Part shown: piece after piece, positions 50,077-56,615 of the stretch
How positions within the stretch are numbered: the first letter of the stretch is position 1
How the letters are laid out: each line of letters opens with the position of its first letter
Source: Fervidicoccaceae archaeon
GTDB taxonomy: Archaea; Thermoproteota; Thermoprotei_A; Sulfolobales; Fervidicoccaceae
Assembly (NCBI GenBank): GCA_038734945.1
Contig: JAVYOA010000002.1
Location: 186,001 to 250,000 of the forward strand
Direction: 5' to 3'
Length of the DNA stretch: 64,000 bases
Position numbers and translations under genes: made by a program
The notes under the pieces: generated by a model
Database searches by the model: none
What the model was told of the DNA's origin: nothing
The model's input: the letters and a program-made list of their open reading frames with translations, nothing else

Positions 50077-50162
50077 GCCGGGGTGCCCGAGCGGACTAAG
50101 GGGCTGGCCTTGAGAGCCAGTTCCCCATTGGGGGAGCGCGGGTTCAAATCCCGCCCCCGGCG
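50077..50162 (+). tRNA. tRNA-Ser (TGA)
   Basis: Type II tRNA. Acceptor GCCGGGG (50077-50083) with CCCCGGC (50155-50161), discriminator G as in tRNA-Ser. Anticodon stem CTGGC/GCCAG with loop CTTGAGA, anticodon TGA. The long variable arm TTCCCCATTGGGGGA and the T arm GCGGG-TTCAAAT-CCCGC follow. No intron and no encoded CCA. Confidence 0.95.
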
Positions 50163-50225
50163 CCTAGACTCCTCGTGAACCTTGCGATTTCTTCCAAGGA
50201 GCCAATAAACTTGTCTCTAGGCTGA

Positions 50226-50274: not shown

Positions 50275-51033
50275 TCACTGGGAAGGTATTGTGGTTCTTG
50301 CCTCTGGATAGATCTCCAGGACTTTTCTAACTATTTCCTCCTGTATTAATGGAAGCTTGGATGCGTTTACAAGCTCCAAAACAACATCGAAAGCATACTC
50401 GTTTTTCCCGGCCCTCATGAGTATCTCCGGATCTGATGCCAGCTCCGGCCTTACGAGAGATGCTATCTCCCTAAGCCTATCTATAACTTCCACTGGATTC
50501 CTGCTCTGTGGAAGGAGAAAGGAAATGATATGAATCGATCCTATGTGCGTAGTTCTGTTAACTATTATTGAGGATGCAAGCTTTGTATTAGGAATAAATA
50601 TTCTTTCCCTCTTTGCGCTCTCCAGAACTATTCCAGATTCTTTTTCCTCTATGACCCTGCCATACTGTCCATCAACCTCTATCCAATCTCCCAACTTGAT
50701 CAATCCAGTTCCCCTCACAGCATACTGCGCTCCCCAGTTTCTCAGAGAATCGGAGAATGCTATTATGAGAGCGAGCCCAACAAGAAGGAGAAGGGTGGTT
50801 AGTATAGATGCCTCAGGAGATATGATTGCAATTGCGATTAGAGCTGCAACAAGATATATGATATACCTGATTACATCCTCTATCTCCTTCCTCACTCTCC
50901 TATCCATGGATCCAGCAACCCTGTCAAGTATGCGGGATATGTACTTGGTAAGGAAGTATATTGCTAATACGAAGGCTCCTGCGGCGAGCAGCCTCAGGAG
51001 GAGGAGAACAACAGGGCTTTCAAGCAGGCTCAA
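50275..51033 (-). CDS. MscS-family mechanosensitive channel
   Basis: About 252 residues. Two to three membrane helices (about residues 6-28, 54-74 and 77-99) are followed by the MscS pore-lining and beta domain (GTGLIKLGDWIEVDGQYGRV, IFIPNTKLASSIIVNRT), the signature of the family. Such channels release solutes on hypo-osmotic shock. TTG 51033 follows GGAGGTG with 7-base spacing and overlaps the HAD stop; the frame is open back to 51084. It is the last gene of the four-gene operon with the GT81-type enzyme. Confidence 0.92.
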   Translation of the reverse strand: MSLLESPVVLLLLRLLAAGAFVLAIYFLTKYISRILDRVAGSMDRRVRKEIEDVIRYIIYLVAALIAIAIISPEASILTTLLLLVGLALIIAFSDSLRNWGAQYAVRGTGLIKLGDWIEVDGQYGRVIEEKESGIVLESAKRERIFIPNTKLASSIIVNRTTHIGSIHIISFLLPQSRNPVEVIDRLREIASLVRPELASDPEILMRAGKNEYAFDVVLELVNASKLPLIQEEIVRKVLEIYPEARTTIPSQ

Positions 51034-51689
51034 GACTTTGCACCTCCATTCAAAATATTCTCCAAATATGCATGAGCACTGCATAGATCGCTGGAAATAT
51101 GTGTTGCATACCTCTCCAGTCCATTGGGGATGTTCCCCCTGTCTATGAGAATGAATATATCGGTCTCGAAGTGCATGCAGAGGTCTGGAAGGGAGTCACC
51201 TATACCTATGCTGGGCTCCCTTTTCATTTTTCTTGAAACCTCCCTCTTGCAAACGGGACATCTAATGCACCAGGGGGTTTCTATTATGTTGCTTCTGAGC
51301 AATACTCTTCCAGTTATCTTATTACTTTCATCGACATCCAGTATGGGGGCATGTATTTTAACTCTATTGAGAAAGCCCATATTTGATAGTATCGCCTCAG
51401 CCACCTGCCTGTATGATAGCGTAACAATATTTACCTCAAAGCCCCTCTTTATGAAAGATTCGATGATTTCCTTTGAGCAAGGGCTCATCCTCGTCTTTCT
51501 TGCTGCACTTAGCACATCATCCATTCTTCTTCCAGCTAGAATTGAAGCTATCTTTCTTGACTTCTCCTCTTCAGGTATAGGGAGCTTTAGAATCTCCAGA
51601 GTCCTTCCCATCAGACCTAGCTCCCTATCTATGACCTGTATGCTCCTCTCCTCAGTCAATGTCATGTCGAGATCGATGAACACGCTCAT
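51030..51689 (-). CDS. HAD-superfamily phosphatase
   Basis: A 219-residue SerB-like HAD hydrolase. Motif I VFIDLDMTLT (nucleophile Asp 6 and Asp 8), motif II in VNIVTLSYRQ, and motif III/IV IGIGDSLPDLC are intact. A short insert has two Cys pairs (WCIRCPVC). Its place directly after a glycosyl-3-phosphoglycerate synthase-like gene suggests it may remove the phosphate from that product, an inference from gene order only. Confidence 0.85.
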   Translation of the reverse strand: MSVFIDLDMTLTEERSIQVIDRELGLMGRTLEILKLPIPEEEKSRKIASILAGRRMDDVLSAARKTRMSPCSKEIIESFIKRGFEVNIVTLSYRQVAEAILSNMGFLNRVKIHAPILDVDESNKITGRVLLRSNIIETPWCIRCPVCKREVSRKMKREPSIGIGDSLPDLCMHFETDIFILIDRGNIPNGLERYATHISSDLCSAHAYLENILNGGAKS

Positions 51690-51693
51690 TTTC

Positions 51694-52374
51694 CTATCCC
51701 CTCGCTCCTTTCAGAATATCCATGAGCTTCTTGAGAATCTCTCCGGATCTGCTCTTCTTGACAGCTATCTCCACAATGTCCCCCCTCACTATCTCTCTGA
51801 TATCCTTCTCTCTACCGTCGCTTAGGGAAAAAGCAGCTATGCTCTTCACACCATCCATCTTCGGGATCTTCTCAAATATTGAATCGATTAGGGAAATTGA
51901 GTTCACAGGTCTCAGTACTATGAAGTTCATGCTCATGCTTCTAGGGAGAACAAGCTCAGTTGGCCTATCGATTGAGAGAAGGGCTTTTACCTCATTCACA
52001 ACTGAATCGACTGGGCTGAGAACAAAATCTGATCCGCTGCTGTACAAAAGCTCAACATTCATAGGATTATTTGCAAGAGCTATAACGAGGGGGACTGAGT
52101 AGTGCTTTTTTGCCCTCTCAACAATGCTGGCATTTAGCGCATCAGAGTCGGTCAGCGAGAAGAGGGTATCCGCAATTCTTATTCCAGCATTTTCCAGTGT
52201 AAGGCTTTCAGTCAAAGGGCCGTGGACTGCTCTTCCAGAAACTAGCTTGCTCATCACCTCAGCAACCTCAGGTGAGCGCTCAACAGTGTAGATGATTCCG
52301 CTGGGGTCAGACTCTCTTATTGCCTTCAGAATGAACATAGAGAAGTGAGTGGATCCTATTACAATGTGCCTCAA
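51694..52374 (-). CDS. TrkA-N (RCK/KTN) nucleotide-binding protein
   Basis: A 226-residue regulator of the kind that gates potassium transporters and channels. RHIVIGSTHFSMFILKAI is the Rossmann nucleotide-binding start, VHGPLTESLTLENAGI and DTLFSLTDSDALNASIVE match TrkA-N, and the last 80 residues resemble a TrkA-C ligand domain. The usual GxGxxG is altered to GSTHFS. No transporter is encoded next to it; the adjacent MscS-type channel is a possible partner. The TTG start overlaps the GT81 stop (TTGA). Confidence 0.83.
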   Translation of the reverse strand: MRHIVIGSTHFSMFILKAIRESDPSGIIYTVERSPEVAEVMSKLVSGRAVHGPLTESLTLENAGIRIADTLFSLTDSDALNASIVERAKKHYSVPLVIALANNPMNVELLYSSGSDFVLSPVDSVVNEVKALLSIDRPTELVLPRSMSMNFIVLRPVNSISLIDSIFEKIPKMDGVKSIAAFSLSDGREKDIREIVRGDIVEIAVKKSRSGEILKKLMDILKGARG

Positions 52375-53108
52375 GGAATCTCAGCCTCCACAGCTTTCAT
52401 CTTCATCTCAGAAAGCATTCTCTCTTCTTCCATCCTCGACAGCTTTCCATCCTTCACAGCTCTTCTGAGTATTGTTTCAGCTACCTCATACGCCATTTCA
52501 GTTAGCATCGGAAGGGGCTTCATATCGTGATCCTTGTAGCCAAGATGCCTCTCAACAATCCTGAATCCGCTTCTGAATATATCTATTACTATTCCTATGT
52601 CAACACCCCAGCCAAGCTCCCAATCAACTGAGGAGAAGGCATCTCTAGTTCCCGCAATTTCTCCGCTGAGAGGCTGAGAGAGCTTTGCGAGCTCTGGATA
52701 GAACATCCTGAGAAGGGGCTTAGCTACAAGTTCTGTCACCCTACCTGATGCCCTCTCGAAGGTTCCCTTAACGAAGTCCGCCTCCCCCCTTCTGAGGGGA
52801 TCTATGAGCTTCTCAATGAATTCAACAGAGAGATTCTTGATGTCTGCATCAAGGAAAGCAATTATGTCTCCCTTCGAGAAGTAGAAGCCATCCCTCATGG
52901 CAACGCCCTTTCCAGGATATCTCAGAAGGCTCTGATAGACTACCCTAGCTCTATTTCTCCTAGCTATCTCTGGAGTGCCATCAGTGCTCATTCCATCTAC
53001 AACTATTACTTCTCTAACTCCCTGAACCTTTCTAGCTATCTTTATCGAGCGAGAAATGAACCTGGCTTCATCCTTAGCTGGAAAAACTATGGAGATGTCC
53101 ATCTTCAA
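52371..53108 (-). CDS. GT81-type glucosyl-3-phosphoglycerate synthase-like glycosyltransferase
   Basis: About 245 residues. The GT-A fold starts DISIVFPAKDEARFISRSI, with VVDGMSTDGTPEIARR, the metal-binding IIAFLDADIKNLSVEF, and the segment SGRVTELVAKPLLRMFYPEL then LSQPLSGEIAGTR and GWGVDIGIVIDI, which matches glucosyl- or mannosyl-3-phosphoglycerate synthases. These make the compatible solutes glucosylglycerate or mannosylglycerate. TTG 53108 or ATG 53102 may be the start. It heads the operon with a phosphatase, a TrkA-N protein and MscS. Confidence 0.83.
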   Translation of the reverse strand: MKMDISIVFPAKDEARFISRSIKIARKVQGVREVIVVDGMSTDGTPEIARRNRARVVYQSLLRYPGKGVAMRDGFYFSKGDIIAFLDADIKNLSVEFIEKLIDPLRRGEADFVKGTFERASGRVTELVAKPLLRMFYPELAKLSQPLSGEIAGTRDAFSSVDWELGWGVDIGIVIDIFRSGFRIVERHLGYKDHDMKPLPMLTEMAYEVAETILRRAVKDGKLSRMEEERMLSEMKMKAVEAEIP

Positions 53109-53186: not shown

Positions 53187-56100
53187 TTACTTTGAGGGGG
53201 CAGCTGTAGTTGCAAGAGATTTCTTGAGGGTGCTGTAGACAACGAACGTTATGGCTATTGCAACGAGCACTAATATCAGGGTTATTATGCTGACATACAG
53301 AGCATTGCTGGCATTGCTGGAGGCACTTGCTGCTGCTGATGAAGCGTTGGCTGCTGCGCTTGAAGCGCTCTGTGCTGCACTCACAGCACTATCGATCTTG
53401 GAGCTCAGAGCATTGACTGCAGAAGCTGCAGTGCTTGCTGAGTTCGCTGCGTTCTGTGCATTGGTTGCTGCGCTCTGTGCTGCGCTGACAGCTGTGTCGA
53501 TCTTTGAGCTCATGCTGCTAACCTGCGTTGATATAGTGCTTAGCTGGGATGCCAAGTTATTCACAGCAGTATTAATTGTTCCGACCTGCGTGCTTATCTG
53601 ATTGACTGTTGCTGCCATTGAGTTGAGGCTGTTCTGAAGTCCTGAAACAGCTGTTCCCACATTGCTTATAGCGCTATTTAGGCTCTGAACTGCTGAGTTG
53701 AGGTTATTCTGCAGCGTTGTGAGCTGAGATGAGACTGAGCTTATTGCGCTGCTGAGGCTGCTTGCTGCACTGTTAACTGCATTAGTTATGTTGCTCACTG
53801 CTGCATTGACATCCATCACAGTGGCAAGCTTTGTGAGGTTGTTGATTACATAGACGTAGCCTGGATCTGTTGAGTTTATAGTCGTTCCAAGGGCATAGGC
53901 GAAGGATATAGCATAGGCTCCTGGCTCAAGCACTGGGATATAGAGTCCCAGTGTGCTTGTGAATGGACTGACGAGCAGACCATTAGCATTAGCGCTCCAT
54001 CTCTCAACGTTTGTGGTTAGGGCCATCACTGCATCGGTTCCATTGAACAGCACTGACAGTATTGAGACTCCTGGAGTGAATCCTGTTCCTATCACTCTGA
54101 CTATTCCAGGTCCTACTAGGACTGGAGCAGCGTTTGTGTTGAGATCAAGCAGCAATAGCTTTGGAACAACATTCACTGGAGAGTTGTAGAATGCTGTTGT
54201 GTTGAAGAACTGCAGTGTTAGGGTTCCGAAGGATGCTCCAGTAGCTGTAATACTGTATGAACCCTGAGGAACGGTTGGAACCACGAAAGTGGCAGAAGCT
54301 GCACCTGTACTGTCAGCAGTTGCTGTTGCTATTGGTATTGAGCCGAAGTATATTGTAACTGTTTCACCTGGGTTAAGTCCGTTGAGGAACACGCTTATCT
54401 GATCTCCAACGTAGTCACATCCACCATTGTACACAGCACACTGATCGCAGAACTTCAAGCCTGTGTACTGCCCGCATGGACAGACTGTTAGCGTGGCATT
54501 GTTGTATCCAGCATAAGCATTTGGAACAGTCTTTGGCAATCCTGTGAGCGGGTTGACTATCTCAAAGTATCCTTTTGATCCAATTATGATGGCAGCTGAG
54601 TACTCATATCCCCATGCATCCCTTCCCCATATGTAGTGAGCTCCGAATGGTATGTTTGTGCTTGGAAGAGTTACCGTAAATGTTAAGTTGCCATCCTTTC
54701 CGAGCGTTACTGTTGCAAGTATTACTGTCCTATCAAGTGAAACTGTTAGTGTGTTCTTCCCGCTGTATCCCCATGCTGCTCCTGGACCGTATCCATATGC
54801 TGTAATTGTCAGTGTGCTTCCTGGAAGTGCCGATGTTGGAGTTACTATGAGAATTGGCCTCACTAGATAGTAGGTGTTGGGGAATGGAAGATATGTCATT
54901 CCTGTTGGTGTCATCGTGACGGTGAGCTGATCATTGTAGGTTGTTGCATTTAGAGGAACTGTTACGGATACGCTTATTGACCATGAGATGCCAGCATCTG
55001 TGAATGAGGGGATTGAGGCTGATGCTGCTCCATTGCTGAACGTCAGAGTGCCTGTAAAGGTCTTCACTGTACCAGTATCAGTGTTGTTATATGTTACTGT
55101 GTAGGTGCTGTTTGTTGGAACAAATGAAAATGCATCGAGCTCCATCTGTATGAGGTTGGTGTAGTTGTAGAATATTACCTGGTAGAGGAAAGTGCCTGTA
55201 GCTGAACCTGTTGCGTTAGTTATACCCGTACTCGTTACATTGAACAGTAGAGCAGACACATTGGCATTTATGCTACTATCCCAAGTTGTGTTTACTGCCT
55301 GGGAGAAGATCTGAACCGTTGGGGATGCTGAGAGGTTGTAGAGAGCAAACATTACTGCTGTAGCATTGTACAACATACCGGTTATTTCGTATGTATATCC
55401 TCCGCTCGTGAAGTCGATTTTCAGTGTCTCAGTCTTTGTGTAGGACTGCGCTGCCGTCTGCTTCTGATATGCCCAGCTACCTGCTATGTTGAAAGTTGCT
55501 GTGACAGTTGCGTGTGTTCCCACATCGTTGTATATGGTTGATGAGGATATCGTTAGAGTGTCAGTACCGAATTGAACGTTTGAATGTGAGGCCGTCTCGG
55601 TCTTAGATATTGGAGTCTCAACCACGTTAAGCGTGTATAGCCCTGCAGTCATGTTTGTTGGGAATACGTTATATAAGTTGCTAAATGTCCAGTATCCTGT
55701 GTTGTCAGTTTGTTTGGGAGAGCTCAGTGTTGTGAAGTCGAAGTAGTAGAAGACATTTGTGAAGTTGGTGTTTGTGAAGTTCACTCCTGCTATGTTTACA
55801 TTTGGATCAAAGCTGTATCCTGTGAGAGTTATGCTAGTTAGGTCAGAATCAATTCCGTTACCGTTGTTCGGAGTGATTAGTAGGACAGGAAGTATTGTAA
55901 TTGTCCCTGGTTTTGCATAATCGGTATAATTTAAACCAGCTACATTATAGAAAGTGACGCTATATGTTCCTCTTGGTATTCCAGTTGTTGAATTGAGGCC
56001 TGAGTTTGGACCTGAAAGAATCAACGTTGTAGTATTTGTACCATCAGTTTTAACGGTTAGAGGTGTGGAGAAGACATATTGCCATGTAGAGGGCCCTGTA

Positions 56101-56615
56101 AATAATAGACTGTAGATTATTGAAGAAGGGGTGGCTCCATATATGTTAACTGTAGCATTTATTGGATTTCCATTCTGATCAACAACAGCTGTCTGAATTG
56201 GTGTGATAACTATCTTTGGATACACTTTTAGGGATGTAGAAGTATTTGTGAAGGGTCCTGTTAGGAGTATGTAAACTGCTGGTGGACTTGTTAAATTAGG
56301 CAATGATAGGGGTAGGGTCAGAGTTATTGTGTAAGTTCCTGTTGTAGGGGCATTGAACGTCTGAGATGCCCACACGGTTTTCCCAGCAGTATCGTTAGCT
56401 AACTCAACTGTGTAGCCTCCAGCTAAATTGACTTGAATTGTTACTGTTATTGGCTCTCCAGGATATGCGTTTCCATCTGAAGCTGTTCCTGTAGCGCTTA
56501 CTATTGTCGCTCCTCCTGTTGTTTGTGCTGTAGCAGTAGGTATGGTTAATGCTCCCACCAACAGAATTGGTAGGAGTGCAAGTACTATTAGCTCAATTTT
56601 TTCCGTATATTTCAT
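53187..56615 (-). CDS. Giant surface (S-layer-like) protein with coiled-coil stalk and membrane anchor
   Basis: 1142 residues. A signal peptide (IELIVLALLPILLVGALTIP, likely cut near TATAQ) is followed by about 870 residues of Thr/Asn/Ser-rich beta-sandwich repeats with many N-glycosylation sites. A lone cysteine cluster (CPCGQYTGLKFCDQC, then GGC, about residues 709-730) sits in this part. Residues ~925-1095 are a long Ala/Ser-rich heptad coiled coil (SSKIDTAVSAAQSA repeats). A membrane helix (YVSIITLILVLVAIAITFVV) and basic tail end the protein. It is probably an outward-facing S-layer or stalk protein. GGAGGT and a TATA box precede the ATG. Confidence 0.85.
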   Translation of the reverse strand: MKYTEKIELIVLALLPILLVGALTIPTATAQTTGGATIVSATGTASDGNAYPGEPITVTIQVNLAGGYTVELANDTAGKTVWASQTFNAPTTGTYTITLTLPLSLPNLTSPPAVYILLTGPFTNTSTSLKVYPKIVITPIQTAVVDQNGNPINATVNIYGATPSSIIYSLLFTGPSTWQYVFSTPLTVKTDGTNTTTLILSGPNSGLNSTTGIPRGTYSVTFYNVAGLNYTDYAKPGTITILPVLLITPNNGNGIDSDLTSITLTGYSFDPNVNIAGVNFTNTNFTNVFYYFDFTTLSSPKQTDNTGYWTFSNLYNVFPTNMTAGLYTLNVVETPISKTETASHSNVQFGTDTLTISSSTIYNDVGTHATVTATFNIAGSWAYQKQTAAQSYTKTETLKIDFTSGGYTYEITGMLYNATAVMFALYNLSASPTVQIFSQAVNTTWDSSINANVSALLFNVTSTGITNATGSATGTFLYQVIFYNYTNLIQMELDAFSFVPTNSTYTVTYNNTDTGTVKTFTGTLTFSNGAASASIPSFTDAGISWSISVSVTVPLNATTYNDQLTVTMTPTGMTYLPFPNTYYLVRPILIVTPTSALPGSTLTITAYGYGPGAAWGYSGKNTLTVSLDRTVILATVTLGKDGNLTFTVTLPSTNIPFGAHYIWGRDAWGYEYSAAIIIGSKGYFEIVNPLTGLPKTVPNAYAGYNNATLTVCPCGQYTGLKFCDQCAVYNGGCDYVGDQISVFLNGLNPGETVTIYFGSIPIATATADSTGAASATFVVPTVPQGSYSITATGASFGTLTLQFFNTTAFYNSPVNVVPKLLLLDLNTNAAPVLVGPGIVRVIGTGFTPGVSILSVLFNGTDAVMALTTNVERWSANANGLLVSPFTSTLGLYIPVLEPGAYAISFAYALGTTINSTDPGYVYVINNLTKLATVMDVNAAVSNITNAVNSAASSLSSAISSVSSQLTTLQNNLNSAVQSLNSAISNVGTAVSGLQNSLNSMAATVNQISTQVGTINTAVNNLASQLSTISTQVSSMSSKIDTAVSAAQSAATNAQNAANSASTAASAVNALSSKIDSAVSAAQSASSAAANASSAAASASSNASNALYVSIITLILVLVAIAITFVVYSTLKKSLATTAAPSK

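Follow-up and report, generated by a model that had tools for sequence, protein, structure and literature searches.

A conserved Thermoproteota operon predicted to combine sugar-glycerate osmolyte synthesis with an RCK-linked MscS channel

The genome of a heat-loving Fervidicoccaceae archaeon contains a tightly packed cluster of four genes on the - strand, which raises the question of whether the synthesis of a compatible solute, a regulatory sensor, and a release channel are encoded there as one functional unit. The cluster occupies positions 50275-53108 of the window, by which we mean the whole 64,000-nucleotide stretch of contig JAVYOA010000002.1 analyzed here, and its ORFs encode a glycosyltransferase (GT), an RCK protein, a HAD phosphatase, and an MscS-family channel. 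These features, along with the GT motifs on which the functional prediction relies, are as follows.

52371..53102, - strand: GT81-like glycosyltransferase, candidate glucosyl/mannosyl-3-phosphoglycerate synthase, with an alternative TTG start at 53108
52842..52850, - strand: GT DxD metal motif (DAD), aligned with Asp134-Ser135-Asp136 of M. tuberculosis GpgS (PMC2581804)
52734..52745, - strand: GT GRVT acceptor (3-phosphoglycerate) motif, aligned with the Val186/Thr187 site of GpgS
52659..52673, - strand: GT PLSGE donor-sugar loop, identical to the PLSGE motif of GpgS
52527..52529, - strand: conserved GT His, aligned with His258 of GpgS
51694..52374, - strand: soluble regulatory RCK protein (TrkA_N plus a divergent C-terminal subdomain), from Pfam TrkA_N and a structural model
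51030..51689, - strand: HAD-IB phosphatase, a candidate for dephosphorylating the GT product, with cysteines in CxxCxxCKR and DxCM, from models and motifs
50275..51033, - strand: MscS-family channel with about three transmembrane (TM) segments and a beta domain, from Pfam MS_channel, MscS structures, and hydropathy

The sequence-only reading had described four overlapping leftward genes, which is correct as regards the four leftward ORFs but not as regards every junction. The GT stop and the RCK start overlap by 4 bp (TTGA, 52371-52374) and the HAD stop overlaps the TTG start of MscS at 51033 (again TTGA), whereas the RCK stop and the HAD start are separated by 4 bp. For the GT, the starts of orthologs favor the in-frame ATG at 53102 over the TTG at 53108 (52371-53108), while the TTG at 51033 was preferred over the ATG at 51084 as the MscS start because of the TTGA overlap and of the ortholog starts. 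Directly upstream of the operon, an S-layer-like gene (53187-56615, - strand, 1142 aa), whose product features a coiled-coil stretch and a C-terminal TM segment, ends 78 bp before the GT; it was rejected as an operon member, since the upstream genes differ at other loci. The tRNA-Ser gene located downstream (50077-50164) is on the opposite, + strand and falls outside the operon.

When we inspected 398 Thermoproteota genomes, a strong GT ortholog (E<=1e-100) was present in 16, many of these carriers being metagenome-assembled genomes (MAGs), and the RCK gene adjoins the GT gene in all 16. MscS comes next in each of the 15 whose contig continues, and the operon HAD was found in 13 of the 14 where the contig allows it. 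The sixteenth carrier, G263, is split, with a second contig encoding the rest of the RCK protein followed by MscS and a HAD-IIB. Searching for RCK at E<=1e-40 returned exactly the same 16 genomes. As the sampled genomes are related, no p-value is claimed for these counts. Among the named relatives are Wolframiiraptor, Geocrenenecus, Benthortus, and Nezhaarchaeota MAGs, while inside the window's own family the distribution of the operon is patchy; a pattern-based scan found no trio outside Thermoproteota. A gene order unique to one strain had been named beforehand as a refutation, and the order is not so confined. Since it recurs across families and classes of Thermoproteota, the clustered order of GT, RCK, HAD, and MscS is confirmed as real rather than due to chance. 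In G001, a genome of the window's genus, an internal deletion (L043:3405-3911) joins about the first 61 GT codons to the C-terminal part of RCK, with HAD and MscS remaining, which could be either a true loss or a MAG assembly fault.

The GT matches Pfam Glycos_transf_2 (5e-18), and its best curated model is GpgS PRK13915 (3e-55); since its 187.5 bits fall under the 262-bit cut-off of this model, we class it from sequence as GpgS/MpgS-type and do not assign it as a named GpgS. Its best solved relatives in the PDB are GpgS (5e-31) and mannosyl-3-phosphoglycerate synthase (MpgS; 3e-26). Residues were compared with those given in passages of the structure paper on GpgS of M. tuberculosis (PMC2581804). 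According to the alignment, the metal motif and the Lys-Asp-acidic network are kept, as PGKG, DAD, and GWGVD, and so are the 3-phosphoglycerate site and the donor loop, which in the window GT read GRVTELVAKPLL and QPLSGE; most orthologs conserve them, L041 and L042 being the loci where they are lost. Tyr229, Glu232, and Ser81 of GpgS are replaced in the window GT by Trp, Asp, and Gly, respectively, of which the first two are as in MgS. As to the donor (glucose or mannose; UDP or GDP), the residues give a mixed picture, with a GpgS-like PLSGE loop but MgS-like Trp/Asp at 229/232 and Gly in place of Ser81. The GT is predicted to transfer either glucose or mannose from a nucleotide diphosphate sugar to 3-phosphoglycerate.

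The second enzyme of the presumed pathway is a HAD phosphatase (Pfam HAD 6e-08) of class HAD-IB. The catalytic motifs (DxDxT, Ser/Thr, Lys, GDxxxD) are all present, including the Ser/Thr of motif II, with D6, D8, T10, K148, G164-D165, and D169 being invariant. Cys147 and Cys171 are invariant in the seven aligned relatives. Cys141 and Cys144 are likewise invariant among the six relatives of the operon type but are not kept in the AOA-like one. The structural model (pLDDT 92) has phosphoserine phosphatases as its closest structures. Assignment to MPGP, which belongs to HAD-IIB, was rejected (12 bits against the TIGR01486 cut-off of 164.75), and no TIGR01486 match was detected anywhere in the window genome, G000; assignment to SerB was rejected as well (23 bits against the TIGR00338 cut-off of 144), although the fold is closest to SerB. 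Unlike the known MPGP type, the protein is a HAD-IB that resembles SerB and carries a cluster of Cys residues. The HAD-IB family is not strictly GT-specific either, as its distribution is wider and relatives occur in genomes lacking a window-type GT.

The comparison of the operons showed that the phosphatase is replaced between lineages. The order GT-RCK-HAD(IB)-MscS is found in the window lineage and in G268, while Caldarchaeales and Nezhaarchaeota share the order GT-RCK-MscS-HAD(IIB). G005, the sole carrier without an operon HAD, encodes elsewhere an MPGP-like protein (158.5 bits against the cut-off of 164.75), and G347 and G313 pair more distant, solitary GTs with MPGPs above the cut-off. 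The best evidence that the GT would make a phosphorylated glycoside which is then dephosphorylated, as in glucosyl/mannosylglycerate synthesis, is this occurrence of non-orthologous phosphatases beside the same GT. Since the GT retains its GpgS/MpgS-type residues and is accompanied by a phosphatase from either of two unrelated HAD classes, the two-step glycosylglycerate route by GT and HAD proposed from sequence is well supported in silico. A related arrangement was observed in the AOA-like genome G361, where a GT81-type GT, an asparagine-synthase-like gene, and a Cys-type HAD-IB lie in a row without RCK (L105:5707-8742), with an MscS gene divergent upstream of this cluster. The AOA literature infers MPGS, the phosphatase not being named in the passage concerned (PMC7554672).

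With respect to the regulatory gene, the RCK protein matches TrkA_N (1.3e-15, 58.1 bits against a Pfam cut-off of 23.8) and is the sole strong TrkA_N match of G000. The closest structures to its AlphaFold model (pLDDT 92) are TM1088, MthK, and the TrkA RCK. It shares with TrkAH/KtrAB and MthK the RCK fold, made up of an N-terminal Rossmann part and a C-terminal subdomain; however, those systems have a GxGxxG motif, whereas the operon RCKs feature GSTHFS (window) or GGGHSA (Caldarchaeales) instead, and the window RCK is linked to an MscS-type gene and not to TrkH/KtrB or a K+ channel. Some RCK_C proteins are controlled by c-di-AMP. Sensing of this nucleotide by the operon RCK is disfavored, as no diadenylate cyclase (PF02457) was found in nine carriers.

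MscS channels are tension-gated valves. The channel encoded in the window, one of three MscS genes in G000, matches MS_channel (2e-07, 31.4 bits against a cut-off of 20.2), has TM segments by hydropathy, and shares with MscS/MscK the TM and beta-domain homology, but differs from them in its genetic linkage to a distinct RCK protein and to osmolyte enzymes. Weaker RCK homologs (1e-20 to 1e-28) were identified in ten further genomes that lack an intact GT, and in nine of these ten, spanning five families, the RCK gene adjoins MscS (on opposite strands in one of the nine), a count that carries some ascertainment bias because the search profile was built from MscS operons. An amino-acid permease (PF13520) was observed beside RCK-MscS in families f63, f18, and f35 (L171, L172, L173, L174, and L176, the Pfam run covering L171, L174, and L176), and a protein of about 235 aa is encoded upstream of the pair in family f3 (L168:6374-7069, -; L169:6467-7186, -; L170:5059-5811, +). 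From this distribution, RCK-MscS appears to be the deeper core of the operon. The sequence-only reading had envisaged synthesis, sensing, and release as a unit; genes predicted for all three do lie in a conserved operon, but conservation is highest for the pair of RCK and MscS, which also occurs without an intact GT.

We think that the operon is best interpreted as an osmolyte synthesis and release module with an RCK-regulated MscS, to which we assign a probability of about 0.6. The GT would use a nucleotide sugar to attach a hexose, either glucose or mannose, to 3-phosphoglycerate, and the HAD phosphatase would remove the phosphate to yield anionic glucosyl- or mannosylglycerate. This product may accumulate and serve both as a compatible solute and to balance K+, a counter-ion function described for glucosylglycerate in a passage of PMC11009771. 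The MscS channel would release the solute upon a rise in turgor, while the RCK protein would act as its dedicated soluble regulator, possibly by direct physical contact, with opening set by a cytoplasmic ligand. Alternatively, the channel may respond to membrane tension alone, RCK then acting elsewhere. Other points that weigh against the module are the GT score under the GpgS cut-off, the wider occurrence of the HAD-IB family, and the patchiness of the operon in the window's family. A tentative variant, which we favor clearly less, deems RCK the gating partner of a ligand-controlled MscS, a module combined with various solute-supplying genes, such as those for glycosylglycerate enzymes or amino-acid permeases, with the GT being a non-catalytic subunit in some lineages.

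The lineages represented by G021 and G031 are relevant in this regard, since they maintain GT-RCK-MscS without HAD and their GTs (L041:9958-10671 and L042:6385-7143) have lost the GRVTEL motif, the GE of PLSGE, and the His, with DSN also replacing DxD in G031. Neither genome yielded an MPGP in a profile search, a strong match to the operon-type HAD-IB (a single 25-bit hit was obtained in G031), or a second close GT. Nevertheless, the dN/dS between G021 and G031 is 0.18 for the GT, close to the 0.14 of RCK and 0.15 of MscS, these values being rough since synonymous sites are near saturation (dS 1.1-1.8); the GT appears to be under purifying selection and has therefore probably been kept with an altered function or as a pseudoenzyme. 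The flanks of L041 and L042 contain, by eye, short LAGLIDADG-like ORFs in apparent rRNA sequence near the operons. In these lineages the GT may serve a purpose other than making a solute, which counts against the module interpretation and agrees with the proposal of a ligand-gated MscS in which the GT works chiefly as a binding or regulatory subunit, reporting nucleotide-sugar or 3-phosphoglycerate status to RCK-MscS, with synthesis secondary. The protein occupying the GT position in family f3 points the same way, as it aligns colinearly with the GT profile and may be derived from it, but this homology is weak (hhalign E 1.8e-4, probability 49%) and no confident Pfam family was detected. Moreover, the GT is strongly conserved in the 16 sampled carriers and most of them have the phosphatase, for which a pure sensor would have no need, so that we regard an enzyme-derived sensor as unlikely.

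Two other explanations appear less probable still. The GT and HAD might make glucosylglycerate as a precursor of a polysaccharide or glycolipid, with RCK-MscS being a neighbor for general turgor control; as a precedent, mycobacterial GpgS starts methylglucose lipopolysaccharides according to a passage of PMC2581804. However, we saw no other glycosyl- or methyltransferase gene repeated from operon to operon; the linked genes encode instead a channel and a likely regulator, and we consider such a role improbable. Nor do we give much credence to the idea that the partner of RCK is a K+ transporter encoded elsewhere in the genome, its place in the operon reflecting nothing more than co-expression. 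Most characterized RCK proteins do control potassium channels or transporters, and two of the closest structures named above, TM1088 and MthK, are in line with it, but a search confined to the TrkH model found no TrkH in 10 of the 13 carriers tested, G000 among them. Given this lack of TrkH in the window genome, RCK is unlikely to be a Trk/Ktr subunit, and the adjacency of RCK and MscS in nine of the ten weaker, GT-lacking cases, in several families, argues against this explanation as well.

Among known systems, the GpgS/MpgS-GpgP/MpgP pathway (with the mycobacterial GT81 GpgS and the Rubrobacter MpgS) shares with the operon the GT family, the acceptor, donor, and metal residues, and the pairing of synthase and phosphatase. 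It differs from the window operon in the phosphatase, here a HAD-IB with a Cys cluster, and in the addition of RCK and the channel; in the Caldarchaeales operon, the phosphatase is a HAD-IIB resembling the phosphoglycolate and sucrose-phosphate phosphatases of archaea, with a weaker similarity to MPGP. The nearest precedent found is kamA-ablB-ynaI of Methanoperedens, which likewise combines in one archaeal operon the synthesis of a solute, N-epsilon-acetyl-beta-lysine, and an MscS-like channel, YnaI, although the solute and the enzymes are different and the passages of that report name no RCK gene (PMC11337218). The novelty claimed for the four-gene unit stands within the literature searched, which was open access, with most subscription journals outside the search: it contained no description of the operon or of the RCK-MscS pair, in which a potassium-channel-type sensor is linked to an MscS pressure valve.

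For sugar-glycerate solutes in, e.g., Caldarchaeales and Nezhaarchaeota, the operon provides candidate enzymes, namely a synthase and phosphatases of two non-orthologous types, and its comparison across genomes also nominates a candidate phosphatase for one AOA-like genome. More broadly, the conserved pairing of RCK and MscS across Thermoproteota suggests a safety valve that is chemically regulated.
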